From assembly GCF_014050225.1 (NCBI RefSeq), contig NZ_JACFXV010000067.1, forward strand, positions 69,328 to 133,327: DNA of 64,000 bases, given 5' to 3'. The DNA comes from Stappia albiluteola. GTDB taxonomy: Bacteria > Pseudomonadota > Alphaproteobacteria > Rhizobiales > Stappiaceae. Positions 49,955 through 53,657 of the stretch are shown here, piece by piece. The notes under the pieces are model-generated. The model had not been told where the DNA came from, did no database searches, and was given only the letters and a program-made list of their open reading frames with translations. The position numbers and the translations under genes are program-made. Each line of letters begins with the position of its first letter. The stretch's first letter is position 1.

Positions 49955-49972
49955 CCATGACCCAGATCATGG
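49955..49972. promoter_or_regulatory. FNR/FixK-like palindrome upstream of the CBS gene
   Basis: CCATGA-CCCAGA-TCATGG is a perfect 6+6+6 inverted repeat centred about 73 bp before the CBS-protein start. Its core ATGA-N6-TCAT differs by one base per arm from the FNR/FixK consensus TTGA-N6-TCAA. The rest of the 49803-50036 gap shows no gene. Confidence 0.45.
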
Positions 49973-50036
49973 CGCGGCGGAGCGGAGTGCACGAAGGTTC
50001 GTTCGCGCATGGGGGGCTTCTTACGGGAGGCCGCAC

Positions 50037-50456
50037 ATGAAAATCTCTGAAGTCATGCACCGGGGCGCTTCCAGCGTCGGCCCGGACGCCGCGATCACGA
50101 AGATCGCCAAGATAATGTCCGACATGGATGTCGGTTCAATTCCCGTGGCGGAAAACGGCCGGGTCATCGGCATCGTGACCGACCGCGACATCGCGCTTCG
50201 CGCGGTGGCCAATGGCAAGGATGTTTCCCGGCTGACGGCGCGAGATATCATGAGCAGCAAGGTGAACTGCTGCCGCGAGCTGGAAGATCTGGACACGGCG
50301 GCACGGATGATGGAACGCAATCACATCCGCCGCCTGCCGGTCCTGGATGACAATGACAGGCTCGTCGGCATGGTGAGCCTGGGCGACGTCTGCCACGCGG
50401 CCTCGCAACGCCTGACGGCCGACGTGGTGAAGGCGGTGTCCGCCCATCACGCCTGA
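50037..50456 (+). CDS. Two-CBS-domain protein
   Basis: A 139-residue protein made almost wholly of two CBS domains (about residues 1-60 and 66-130): MKISEVMHRGASSVGPDAAI ... VIGIVTDRDIALRAV and RDIMSSKVNCC ... RRLPVLDDNDRLVGMVSLGDV. CBS pairs bind adenosyl ligands (AMP, ATP, SAM) and act as energy sensors. Its length and architecture resemble hypoxic-response protein 1 of mycobacteria, but homology at that level is not shown. GGGAGG precedes the ATG, and a PHB-depolymerase-like gene follows after 77 bp. Confidence 0.9.
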   Translation: MKISEVMHRGASSVGPDAAITKIAKIMSDMDVGSIPVAENGRVIGIVTDRDIALRAVANGKDVSRLTARDIMSSKVNCCRELEDLDTAARMMERNHIRRLPVLDDNDRLVGMVSLGDVCHAASQRLTADVVKAVSAHHA

Positions 50457-50533
50457 CGGGAAATGACACAATGGGTCGGTCGCGGCATGGCGGTGCCATG
50501 TCGTGGCCGGGCACGCCTTCTTGGAGAGGGATA

Positions 50534-51628
50534 ATGGGTGCGCATTCGGCCGGTAACATGCCGGGAGCGGTGCCGGCCGCAGCGCGCCGATCCTTCGGCG
50601 TCGGCCAGGTCAATGTCCGGGGCGCGCCACATATCGTGTCGACGCATGAACTGGCCGAGTTTCCATTCGCTGTCCTCACGCAATTCAGAAGGCTGGAGCA
50701 CGAGGCGGACTGTCCCGGCGAGGCCCTGGTCGTGGTGCCGCTTGCCGGTGCCTTTCCCATGCTGATGCGCGACCTCGTCGTCGGGCTGCTTGGCCTGTTC
50801 CCGCGGGTGTCAATCACCGAATGGTTCGACGCCCGTCATGTGCCGCTGTCGCACGGGCGGTTCAGCCTGAGCGAGAATATCGCCCATACGGCGGACATGC
50901 TCGGCCTCCTCGGCAAGGGGGTGCATCTCTTCGGCGTCTGCCAGGGCGCGGTTGCGGCCCTCGGAGCGGCGGCGCTGCAAGGCATCCGTCACCGGCAGGA
51001 AGTCCCATCCTCCGTCATTCTGCTCGGCGGGCCGATCGCGCCGCTTGCCAATCCCACTCGGATCGTCCGTATCATGCGGGCAAAGCCGCTCGGCTGGTTC
51101 GCCGACAAGCTGGAGCGCGTGCCGGAAGGAAATGCCGGCGCCGGGCGGCTGGTCTATCCGGCTTCCAGCCAGCGGGTTCTGGCAACCGCCTACGCCTGGC
51201 GGCATGTGCTGAGCGGGGATGAGATTTTCCGCAAGTTCGTGCAGGATGACGGCGACGACCCGCTGCACTACTCCTTTGCGAAGCTGTTCTTCTCCCTGAT
51301 GGACCTGCCCGGGGAACTTTTCCTCGACACGGTCGCCCATGTCTATCAGGCAAGCGATGCGTTGAGCGGTGGCGTGAGCGTCGAGGGCCACCCGGTCGAT
51401 CCGGCGTGCATTGTGCAGGGCGGCCTGATGGTGGTGGAGGGGGCGGATGACGACATCGCCGCGCCGGGTCAGACGGCTGCAGCACTCCAACTCTGCCGCA
51501 ACCTGCCTGAAAACAGGAAGGCTTATCTGGCGTTAGATGGCTGCAGTCACTTCTCGCTGTTTCACGGGCAGACGATGCGGCACAAGGTCCTTCCCGAAGT
51601 CAGTCGCTTCGTCCAGGCAGTCTGTTGA
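50534..51628 (+). CDS. Intracellular PHB depolymerase-like alpha/beta hydrolase
   Basis: A 364-residue alpha/beta-hydrolase resembling intracellular poly(3-hydroxybutyrate) depolymerases. The nucleophile elbow is FGVCQGAVAALG with Cys136 instead of serine, as in PhaZ proteins of Ralstonia. The C-terminal GCSHFSLFHGQTMR matches the PhaZ histidine region, and WFDARHVPLSHGRFSLSENI resembles the family's second block. It is shorter than the ~410-residue PhaZ. The start at 50534 follows GGAGAGGG. Its last 29 bp overlap the convergent phosphoribosyltransferase gene. Confidence 0.8.
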   Translation: MGAHSAGNMPGAVPAAARRSFGVGQVNVRGAPHIVSTHELAEFPFAVLTQFRRLEHEADCPGEALVVVPLAGAFPMLMRDLVVGLLGLFPRVSITEWFDARHVPLSHGRFSLSENIAHTADMLGLLGKGVHLFGVCQGAVAALGAAALQGIRHRQEVPSSVILLGGPIAPLANPTRIVRIMRAKPLGWFADKLERVPEGNAGAGRLVYPASSQRVLATAYAWRHVLSGDEIFRKFVQDDGDDPLHYSFAKLFFSLMDLPGELFLDTVAHVYQASDALSGGVSVEGHPVDPACIVQGGLMVVEGADDDIAAPGQTAAALQLCRNLPENRKAYLALDGCSHFSLFHGQTMRHKVLPEVSRFVQAVC

Positions 51629-52259
51629 ACCGCGCAAGGATATCCGTCACCTCGACATCGGCCAGTTGCGGGAAATCCCGATAGGAACGGCTTATCGCCT
51701 CGAAGGCGGCCGGAGTTTCGAGACAGACGATCTCGTCAACCTCGCTTCGCAGATCCTCGATTGCTTCCATCGGCGCGACCGGCACGGCCAGGACAATCCT
51801 TTGAGGCTGCCGAAGCCGGAGACCGCGGATCGCCGCCTTGACGGTTGCGCCGGTCGCGATACCGTCATCGACGAGGATCGCCACGCGTCCCCGCACGGGA
51901 ACCGGGGGACGATCCCCGCAATAGGCCTGGCGCCGCCTGGCTATCTCGGCAAGCTCGCTCTTGCAGGTGGCGGCGAACTGCTCCTCACGGATGAATTCAT
52001 GGCGTAGGATGTCGTCATTGCGGACGACGATCGGTTCCTCGGCGTCGACGATCGCGCCCATGGCAAGCTCGGGTTGCCAGGGAACGCCGATCTTGCGCAC
52101 GATCAAAAGGTCCAGCCGCGCCTTGAGCTTCCTTGCGACTTCGGCCGCGACCGGCACGCCGCCGCGCGGCAACGCGAGCACGACCACGTCCTCGCGCGCG
52201 TATTCCTGCAGAGCCTGGCCCAGGCGACGGCCTGCCTCGGCGCGATCAAGAAAGGGCAT
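51600..52259 (-). CDS. Phosphoribosyltransferase-fold protein
   Basis: A 219-residue type I PRTase fold. The PRPP-binding loop is VAILVDDGIATGATVKAA, preceded by VVVLALPRGGVPVAAEVA and IVRKIGVPWQPELAMGAI. Proteins with this architecture occur as stand-alone stress proteins in many bacteria, and no base substrate is established. The start at 52259 (MPFLDRAEAG) is chosen; an upstream ATG exists. It diverges from the dodecin gene across an exact FNR/FixK-type site. Confidence 0.87.
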   Translation of the reverse strand: MPFLDRAEAGRRLGQALQEYAREDVVVLALPRGGVPVAAEVARKLKARLDLLIVRKIGVPWQPELAMGAIVDAEEPIVVRNDDILRHEFIREEQFAATCKSELAEIARRRQAYCGDRPPVPVRGRVAILVDDGIATGATVKAAIRGLRLRQPQRIVLAVPVAPMEAIEDLRSEVDEIVCLETPAAFEAISRSYRDFPQLADVEVTDILARFNRLPGRSD

Positions 52260-52321
52260 TGTGCCTGCCTCCCGTGTCGCTGTCGGCGCGAATGCCCTAA
52301 CCCGCATGGCACCGGTTGTCG

Positions 52322-52335
52322 TTGACGATGGTCAA
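52322..52335. promoter_or_regulatory. Exact TTGA-N6-TCAA site (FNR/FixK family) in divergent promoter
   Basis: TTGACGATGGTCAA matches the FNR/FixK consensus half-sites exactly and is symmetric over TTGAC/GTCAA. It lies 63 bp upstream of the phosphoribosyltransferase start and 57 bp upstream of the dodecin start, a distance suited to activation of either gene under low oxygen. Confidence 0.6.
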
Positions 52336-52391
52336 TGACCCGAAAGTCTTGCTGCGCGAGCCTTGGCGTCGGCTGGGGAAGGGAGGAAGCA

Positions 52392-52592
52392 ATGGCTATG
52401 TTGAAGGTGATCGAAGTCCTGGCCGAATCCGACGAGAGCTGGGAGCAGGCGGCAAGGCAGGCGGTTGCGGACGCCTCGCGCTCGGTGCGAAACGTCAAAT
52501 CGATTTACATCAAGAATTTCGAGGCGACGGTCGACCAGAACAAGATCCAGCGCTATCGCGTCAACGCCAAGATCTCGTTCGTTCTGGAGTAG
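52392..52592 (+). CDS. Dodecin (flavin-binding storage protein)
   Basis: A 66-residue protein with the dodecin pattern: LKVIEVLAESDESWEQAARQAVADASRSVRNVKSIYI and YRVNAKISFVLE. Dodecins form dodecamers that bind flavin dimers and buffer free flavin. GGGAGGAAGC precedes the ATG. It ends 5 bp from the stop of the convergent hibernation-factor gene. Confidence 0.9.
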   Translation: MAMLKVIEVLAESDESWEQAARQAVADASRSVRNVKSIYIKNFEATVDQNKIQRYRVNAKISFVLE

Positions 52593-52597
52593 AGCGT

Positions 52598-53149
52598 TCA
52601 GGCGGGTGCGACCGCCGAAGCATAGGGGCCTTTTTCTCCCGTATGCTCCGTGAAGCGCACCTGCGTTCCCACGCCGATACCCGACCAGAGGTCGTCGGAG
52701 ACGAGGCTCTCGCGGCGAAAGAAGAACTCGCGCCCGTCCGCGGCGCCGATGAAGCCGAAGCCCTCGTCGGCGACGAGGCGGACGACCTTGCCCTGCAGCT
52801 TGACCGGCACCGGCTTGACGAGGTGGCCGTTCTTCCTGCGCGACGTATCCTCAAGGCGCCGCTCGGCGGCGTTGAAGCTGTCGCGAATGGCGATCAGCAC
52901 GTCTTCGTGCGCGCGGTTTTCCTCCGGCTCGCGGCCGACGAAGATGTCGCCGCCCGGCACCTTGATGTCGATATGGACGTGGTAGATCTGCCCCTTGTGG
53001 CTGCGCTGATGCGGCGCCTCCACCACCACGTGGCAGGATGTGATGCGCCCGTGGAAACGCTCCAGCCTTTCCAGCCGCTTGCGCAGCGCCTCCTCGATCC
53101 TCGGGGTGGAGTCGAGACCGCGAAAGGTGATTTGCGGAGCGACCTGCAT
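52598..53149 (-). CDS. Hibernation-promoting-factor domain fused to a cold-shock domain
   Basis: A 183-residue two-domain protein. Residues ~1-105 match the HPF/RaiA/YfiA fold (ITFRGLDSTPRIEEALRKRLERLERFHGRI ... CHVVVEAPHQR ... YHVHIDIKVPGGDI ... AIRDSFNAAERRL), which binds ribosomes in stationary phase. Residues ~120-183 are a cold-shock domain (GKVVRLVADEGFGFIGAADGREFFFRRESL) with RNP1-like GFGFI and RNP2-like FFFRR. The fusion suggests binding both ribosome and RNA. The start at 53149 follows GGAGG. Confidence 0.85.
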   Translation of the reverse strand: MQVAPQITFRGLDSTPRIEEALRKRLERLERFHGRITSCHVVVEAPHQRSHKGQIYHVHIDIKVPGGDIFVGREPEENRAHEDVLIAIRDSFNAAERRLEDTSRRKNGHLVKPVPVKLQGKVVRLVADEGFGFIGAADGREFFFRRESLVSDDLWSGIGVGTQVRFTEHTGEKGPYASAVAPA

Positions 53150-53237: not shown

Positions 53238-53657
53238 TCAGGCCGCAAAGATCGCCTTGTCGTCGGCGAAGGCCTTGAATTCCAGCGCATTGCCCGACGG
53301 GTCGAAGACGAAAAGCGTCTGCTGCTCGCCGGGCCCGCCGGCAAAGCGGGTCTGCGGTCGGATATGCCAGCGGGTATCGGGTGCCTGTTCCAGCCGGTCG
53401 ACAAGCTCGGCGAATTCGTCGGGCGCGAGGATGACGCCGAAATGCGGGATCGGCACCGGGACGCCGTCGACGGTACCGGTGGCGCCGCCCTCGGTGGCGG
53501 GCTTGCCCAGATGGGCGGACAACTGGTTGCCGAAGAGATCAAAATCGATCCACTTTCCGGCCAGTTCGCGACCGATGCGGCAGCCGAGCACGGTACCGTA
53601 GAAATGGCGCGTCGCCTCGAGATCGGTCACGGGGAAGGCGAAATGGAAGGGGCGCAT
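53238..53657 (-). CDS. VOC/glyoxalase-superfamily protein
   Basis: A 139-residue VOC-fold protein: it opens PFHFAFPVTDLEATRHFYGTVLGCRIG and ends VFDPSGNALEFKAF with a likely metal glutamate. IPHFGVILAPDEFAELVDRL gives another metal-site His. The family includes glyoxalases, dioxygenases and fosfomycin-resistance-like enzymes, and the substrate is unknown. The start at 53657 follows CAGGAGAG. It diverges from the BNR-repeat gene. Confidence 0.83.
   Translation of the reverse strand: MRPFHFAFPVTDLEATRHFYGTVLGCRIGRELAGKWIDFDLFGNQLSAHLGKPATEGGATGTVDGVPVPIPHFGVILAPDEFAELVDRLEQAPDTRWHIRPQTRFAGGPGEQQTLFVFDPSGNALEFKAFADDKAIFAA

Follow-up and report, generated by a model that had tools for sequence, protein, structure and literature searches.

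Within a 64,000-nucleotide stretch of the Stappia albiluteola genome (contig NZ_JACFXV010000067.1, positions 69,328 to 133,327; hereafter the window), positions 49,955 to 53,149 hold five genes, which encode a two-CBS-domain protein, a PhaZ-like hydrolase related to intracellular polyhydroxybutyrate (PHB) depolymerases, a phosphoribosyltransferase (PRTase), dodecin and a hibernation factor fused to a cold-shock domain (HPF-CSD, here HPFcold). The group probably came together locally from parts of a widespread toolkit for dormancy at low oxygen, under the control of FixK/FNR-type regulators. What we observed in favour of this reading are the identities of the genes, an exact FixK/FNR box between two of them, the place of that box in a genomic box set, and a recurrent association of several of the gene families with such boxes and with one another in related genomes. 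Judged by their sequences, the five genes appear suited to shutting down ribosomes and drawing on reserves.

All five gene families named in the initial annotation were recovered: the open reading frames (ORFs) are present, and each Pfam domain scores above its curated cut-off. The CBS gene (50037–50456, plus strand, 139 amino acids) encodes an HRP1-like protein with two CBS domains (PF00571, 4.5e-28), whose best PDB match is 9z6r (2e-24) and whose relatives include Rv2626c/HRP1 (3e-15). Downstream on the same strand follows the PhaZ-like gene (50534–51628, 364 amino acids), the product of which carries the PHB_depo_C domain (PF06850, 1.5e-40). PhaZ enzymes use Cys-Asp-His as catalytic residues, and the corresponding Cys136, Asp306/307 and His339 are conserved in 32/32 homologues; the score against TIGR01849 is 257 bits, under the cut-off of 300.75, and we therefore regard the protein as an outlying member of the PhaZ family. 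Its 3′ end converges, with a 29-bp overlap, on the PRTase gene of the TT1426 type (51600–52259, minus strand, 219 amino acids; Pribosyltran; 1wd5, 1.1e-35). The PRTase gene is divergent from that of dodecin (52392–52592, plus strand, 66 amino acids; PF07311, 7.8e-24; 42 bits with the NCBIfam dodecin model, under its cut-off of 75), which in turn converges on the HPFcold gene (52598–53149, minus strand, 183 amino acids) across a gap of 5 bp. Starts of the PhaZ-like, PRTase, dodecin and HPFcold genes were corrected by eye from homologues and ribosome-binding sites; for the PhaZ-like gene this moved the start from the first in-frame codon at 50471 to 50534, and the HPFcold start at 53149 was placed from homologues whose N-terminus is near MQV. 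Scanning the window for Rfam families and tRNAs gave no match, and a sigma-70 promoter scan near the cluster found none.

HPFcold consists of a Ribosomal_S30AE domain followed by a C-terminal cold-shock domain (CSD). Its residues 1–180 align over both domains with the Coxiella chain of PDB 9T0Z (9t0z_9, 9.2e-37), and 17 proteins of the order Rhizobiales, the window's included, align across both. The class was named for Coxiella burnetii CBU_0020 (PDB 9T0Z), which occupies the tRNA cleft of the 30S subunit with its cold-shock domain on the anti-Shine-Dalgarno sequence (PMC13392368). The window protein shares this two-domain build, and ribosome binding can be predicted for it. A second S30AE protein of the genome, on contig C39, has an extended C-terminal part and neighbours recognised by eye as rpoN and ptsN, on which grounds we read it as a long HPF.

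The box, TTGACGATGGTCAA (TTGAC-GATG-GTCAA, an exact anaerobox or FixK/FNR site), lies at 52322–52335 in the divergent promoter region of the PRTase and dodecin genes, 76 and 70 bp from their respective start codons. Both genes have in it a promoter box close to TTGA-N6-TCAA, and it is the only match without mismatches to TTGAYNNNNRTCAA in the window. Sites with up to two mismatches number 72 (mean of 42.6 and maximum of 63 in shuffled sequence). Because such sites are common, a degenerate CRP/FNR-type palindrome upstream of the CBS gene (ATGACCCAGATCAT, 49957–49970, two mismatches), whose function is doubtful, means little alone; modest support comes from the closest CBS homologue found (L171, 60% identity), which has the exact form TTGACCCAGATCAA, with the same core, 112 bp upstream. 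The initial annotation had placed FNR/FixK-like sites in two promoters of the group, and of these the PRTase–dodecin site is exact and the CBS-upstream site weak.

Across the genome the exact box occurs in 20 places, compared with 2 for the reversed pattern. One box lies 121 bp before a COX1-family gene read as ccoN, and another precedes a ccoG-like gene by about 300 bp; the genes for a CRP/FNR regulator and a narK-like protein have two between them (ccoG and narK by eye), and a universal stress protein (USP) gene has one 99 bp ahead of it. Another is found about 178 bp upstream of phaC (L133, G000:C60:263680), in line with the prediction of phbC as a FnrN/FixK target; one stands between divergent enoyl-ACP-reductase-like (fabI-like) and DUF3141 genes (L127, G000:C49:42000-47000), and a further one has an Hsp20 gene 225 bp away. 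It should be noted that the simple gene caller misplaces some genes, which affects the calls made here and in the neighbourhoods described below. Another DUF3141 gene is located in the same genome at G000:C56:4000-15000 (L129). A second dormancy-like island (L130, G000:C58:120000-131500) has two exact boxes and encodes Hsp20, a thiamine-pyrophosphate enzyme, an ATP-grasp/CoA-ligase-GNAT protein and a USP.

The genome also encodes a FixK-like regulator with an E-TVSR helix (contig C63). Read by eye, it has the helix sequence TIETVSR, of FNR type, and lacks a Cys cluster at the N-terminus; its gene adjoins hemN-like and FixJ-like ORFs, likewise identified by eye. Seven of the 13 PF13545 matches were read, and in none of them is there a clear C-x2-C cluster of the FNR type at the N-terminus; the starts of two are uncertain. 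Given a FixK-like protein free of the Cys cluster and encoded beside hemN- and FixJ-like ORFs, the upstream input is likely to be FixL-FixJ-FixK, with FixL presumed, rather than an iron-sulphur FNR.

Homologues of the five proteins were searched in 297 genomes of the order (199 for dodecin), and an exact box was scored if found up to 300 bp upstream of the start, with the window's own genes counted. For the PRTase and dodecin the best 30 of 52 and the best 30 of 47 loci were taken, respectively, and for the long (housekeeping) HPF the best 30 among the matches listed, so that these tests see nearer homologues; one row starting at a contig edge (L069) and two with short upstream regions (L173, L038) were left out. 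Exact boxes precede 12/27 HPFcold-type genes (10/20 of those with a match spanning the cold-shock domain and 2/7 with S30AE-only matches) and 7/23 CBS genes, the window's HPFcold and CBS genes not being among the positives. The counts were 4/30 for the PRTase and 3/30 for dodecin, each including the window's gene, and none in the controls, the long HPF (0/30) and ordinary PhaZ (0/29). With up to one mismatch allowed, they rose to 17/27 (HPF), 10/23 (CBS) and 5/30 (PRTase), dodecin staying at 3/30, long HPF at 0/30 and PhaZ reaching 1/29. In Fisher tests, which ignore shared descent, p was 2.5e-5 for HPFcold-type genes versus the long HPF and 0.0018 for CBS versus PhaZ; the 12 positive HPF genomes are spread over 11 families. 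Against the pooled controls (0/59), p was 0.011 for the PRTase and 0.036 for dodecin, both including the single box of the window. Shuffled upstream regions contained on average at most 0.05 exact boxes per set; an exact box turned up in about 0.0003 to 0.002 of them. The HPFcold and CBS homologues are hence box-linked above controls, and the PRTase and dodecin homologues more weakly. The counts lend no support to PhaZ genes as box targets, with 0/29 for the ordinary set and 0/18 for the PhaZ-like set, in which only four members (the window's included) are at least 40% identical.

Matches were found in 27 of the 297 genomes for HPF (at 1e-30), 50 for the PRTase (1e-25), 22 for CBS (1e-28) and 18 for the PhaZ-like protein (1e-56), and in 47 of 199 for dodecin (1e-8). 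HPF and PRTase co-occur in 11 genomes versus 4.3 expected (p = 0.001), HPF and CBS in 6 versus 1.8 (p = 0.006), and PRTase and CBS in 6 versus 3.5 (p = 0.11), the window's genome being excluded. Within 10 kb of each other are HPF and PRTase in 3/11 of these genomes (G001, G107 and G294), HPFcold and CBS in 2/6 (G061 and G142), and PRTase and CBS in 2/6 (G093 and G189), and all three neighbour pairs recur in other families. In the congener G001 (L037, L073) genes for a hydrolase, the PRTase and HPFcold stand in a row, the first of them preceded by an exact box at a distance of about 60 bp. G189 and Rhizobium sp. WYJ-E13 each have divergent PRTase and CBS genes with two exact boxes between them. 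A stretch with two PRTases and CBS in G093 (L229, G093:C1:2999000-3018900) holds six exact boxes; by eye, one of its ORFs is Hsp20-like and another has an FNR-like cysteine cluster at its N-terminus. Four of the five families are present in the genome G142, mostly far apart, dodecin being the one without a match.

Among 145 proteins of 70 to 1199 residues encoded within about 4.5 kb around 18 HPFcold genes, we counted HSP20 and the Pribosyltran domain four times each and PhaC_N, BON and CBS three times each, one of the four Pribosyltran neighbours (L088) being, by eye, possibly a PRPP synthetase. None of these five was among the best 25 of the 211 families found in 129 control proteins. ABC transporters were also commoner near HPFcold (8 versus 3 in the control). 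The surroundings of HPFcold contained 24 exact boxes in 306 kb (own promoters included) versus 5 in 168 kb of control regions, which in part share their contigs with HPF genes. On the Sinorhizobium fredii plasmid pSF45436d (L070) there are 10 exact boxes in the 20.5 kb around HPFcold, none of them within 300 bp of that gene. This plasmid is predicted to be conjugative, and the stretch also encodes two CRP/FNR-type or cyclic-nucleotide-binding proteins, hemerythrin, P-type ATPases, a site-2 protease and a BON protein.

Taken together, these data would fit the following sequence of events. Falling oxygen would activate a FixL-FixJ-FixK cascade and load FixK on the box at 52322–52335, from where it would switch on the PRTase and dodecin genes in both directions. 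The S30AE domain of HPFcold would fill the mRNA/A-site channel and the cold-shock domain would shield the anti-Shine-Dalgarno end of the 16S rRNA, allowing idle 70S ribosomes to survive; meanwhile dodecin would buffer flavins freed from idle flavoenzymes, the CBS protein would read adenylates, the PhaZ-like hydrolase would free PHB carbon and the PRTase would salvage nucleobases. We infer the activity of every one of these proteins in this organism, as well as a response of HPFcold and of the CBS–PhaZ-like pair along with the PRTase and dodecin.

The initial annotation had read the group as a compact hypoxia or dormancy module. The hypoxia and dormancy part gains genomic support from the exact box, from the 20-site set with its ccoN-, ccoG- and narK-like, USP and phaC genes, from the box-linked homologues, and from HPFcold genes beside those for Hsp20, PhaC, BON, CBS and PRTase-domain proteins. 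A fixed module, conserved as a group across Rhizobiales, was not found and is rejected: pairs recur, and the full set of five occurs at the thresholds used in no other genome searched, which weighs against our reading along with a number of further points. Within the window, neither HPFcold nor the PhaZ-like gene has its own box (best sites with three mismatches), and the palindrome before the CBS gene was not accepted as a proven box; some of the 20 genomic boxes fall within coding regions as called, or in places where no gene is clearly close by. The oxygen response of the group is predicted from sequence. Among relatives, no exact box was seen at 26/30 PRTase and 27/30 dodecin loci (best 30 each), from which it would follow that these two families also serve elsewhere. 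HPFcold likewise lacks its own box in the congener G002 and on the S. fredii plasmid, and no exact box at all was found in stretches around PRTase or CBS homologues of Paracoccus denitrificans and Sphingobium or around the HPF gene of Azospirillum. A draw from the phylum gave an exact box at 1/12 further HPF loci, 11 of the 12 outside the order, and the order-wide signal was not shown to extend to the phylum; these loci test HPFcold poorly because 9/12 match the S30AE half alone. Loci from other sources gave 1/5 usable ones with an exact box. Finally, the control genes come partly from genomes other than those of the HPF matches, more often near relatives. We marked our reading down slightly because the control loci were not paired by genome and the samples from the phylum and from plasmids are of mixed composition.

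Another possible explanation is that only the PRTase and dodecin are under oxygen control, with the CBS, PhaZ-like and HPFcold genes as bystanders or on stationary-phase or carbon signals, and that the cluster arose by chance gene traffic between two sugar-acid loci. The sole exact box of the window indeed lies between these two genes, HPFcold and the PhaZ-like gene being without one; neither congener (G001, G002) has a CBS or PhaZ-like match at the thresholds used, and the gene directions divide the five into convergent pairs. However, the CBS and HPFcold families are box-linked elsewhere (7/23 and 12/27), the pairs HPFcold–CBS, HPFcold–PRTase and PRTase–CBS recur in other families, and HPF-type and PRTase genes co-occur well above expectation (11 genomes versus 4.3), so that we consider this explanation rather unlikely. 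NnrR- and NarR-type regulators share the TTGA half-site class, and the genome has CRP/FNR relatives beside nirK (by eye) and beside the narK-like gene with two boxes. The box might accordingly be read mainly by a relative of this kind, responding to nitric oxide (NO) or nitrate, in which case the group would answer denitrification signals and not oxygen. The presence in the box set of ccoN- and ccoG-like genes, which are usual FixK targets, and of FNR-like, hemerythrin or Hsp20-like genes in box-bearing islands elsewhere makes this quite improbable. Mere coincidence, i.e. a grouping of unrelated housekeeping genes beside a fortuitous box, would agree with the finding of the exact five-gene group in this genome alone; it is hardly credible when exact boxes appear in some 0.0003 to 0.002 of shuffled upstream regions and at 0/30 and 0/29 control loci.

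The preferred reading, a FixK/FNR-run low-oxygen toolkit, has parallels in sets already known. The DosR regulon, whose regulator and binding site are of another kind than FixK/FNR, includes HRP1 and PRTases. It also contains RafH, a hibernation factor induced by hypoxia, which holds 70S monosomes and uses regions disordered in earlier structures to contact the anti-Shine-Dalgarno (PMC10799931). A hibernation factor and a two-CBS protein (HRP1/Rv2626c, related to the window's at 3e-15) are common to both, and the comparison with DosR drawn in the initial annotation stands as an analogy; RafH differs from HPFcold in being an orthologue of the long HPF and not a cold-shock fusion (PMC10799931). 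The low-oxygen-activated (lxa) locus of Burkholderia cenocepacia comprises 50 genes, including six USPs, and its named members include an alpha-crystallin, phosphofructokinase, USPs and a BON protein (PMC6127331, PMC9104464). As described, it is a cluster for stress and metabolism induced at low oxygen, which the present group would resemble, and families named in lxa adjoin HPFcold or the PRTase in some of the relatives analysed; in contrast to lxa, there is no USP among the window's five genes. In FnrN/FixK/Fnr regulons of Alphaproteobacteria, known for boxes of the same kind as in the window, phbC is a predicted FnrN/FixK target, a small heat-shock protein is FnrN-dependent and USPs are targets of Fnr or FnrL/CrpK (PMC4999443, PMC7888657, PMC11784457, PMC7713065, PMC4263372). 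The main texts searched among these papers do not mention dodecin, CBS domains or phosphoribosyl- terms, and one of them also has no ribosom- term; a CBS protein listed in this literature is controlled by a different factor, MppG. In archaeal HibA, an HPF/RaiA domain is linked to CBS domains with AMP, ADP and ATP as ligands, although its authors saw no clear nucleotide effect (PMC13324472). The four CBS domains of HibA belong to one fused protein, whereas the genes here are separate, bacterial, and provide two CBS domains.

Against this background, we tentatively suggest, as possible rather than probable, that HPFcold serves Rhizobiales as a second hibernation factor, reserved for oxygen loss and, unlike the long HPF, under FixK/FNR. 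It would then be a proteobacterial counterpart of the DosR-controlled RafH, both guarding the 70S anti-Shine-Dalgarno in hypoxic cells, and its recurrent CBS neighbour would act as a separate adenylate gate, two proteins doing what archaeal HibA may do in one. The lack of a clear nucleotide effect reported for HibA led us to lower our estimate of this proposal. HPFcold was named in 2026 together with a ribosome structure, and the main text of that paper does not mention FNR, hypoxia, anaerobiosis, promoter or regulon; cells were grown at 2.5% oxygen as a culture condition and not as a test, and a pan-genome study of HPFs is referred to (PMC13392368). The association of the Rhizobiales family with FixK/FNR boxes differs from that account, and the contrast of 12/27 with 0/30 for the long HPF supplies oxygen loss as a candidate signal. 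In the literature searched, which took in few subscription papers and no supplements, no statement placing HPFcold or dodecin under FixK/FNR was found; in the text of PMC3797731 the only match to hibernation or FNR-type terms is a reference. The contrast between HPFcold and the long HPF allows a direct test of whether separate hibernation factors serve separate stresses, with the neighbours CBS, PRTase, Hsp20, PhaC and dodecin as candidate partners of HPFcold.

Directly upstream of HPFcold and on the same strand lies a gene for a VOC/glyoxalase-fold protein (53238–53657, minus strand), which has no exact box and is possibly co-transcribed with HPFcold. One flank of the group contains an ORF with L-idonate 5-dehydrogenase as its best, under-cut-off NCBIfam match, and the other an Amidohydro_2 protein together with enolase-like and DHDPS-like ORFs, the last two recognised by eye.

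Six plasmid stretches were chosen by eye, five of which were scanned, in addition to L070 and L072. Exact boxes were present in L312, L313, L314 and L070 and absent from L309, L311 and L072. In L309 (Sphingobium plasmid pTomMM15a), genes for CBS, esterase-like, hydrolase-like (these two by eye) and PRTase proteins stand in a row, followed by phosphofructokinase; the row adjoins response-regulator ORFs and is perhaps the same toolkit under another regulator. In L072, from an Azospirillum brasilense plasmid, a gene of the HPF/RaiA family is followed by genes for ppsA, an oxidoreductase, a PRTase, Hsp20, a BCAM0308-family protein, a nicotinate PRTase and PRPP synthase; BCAM0308 itself belongs to the lxa gene range.

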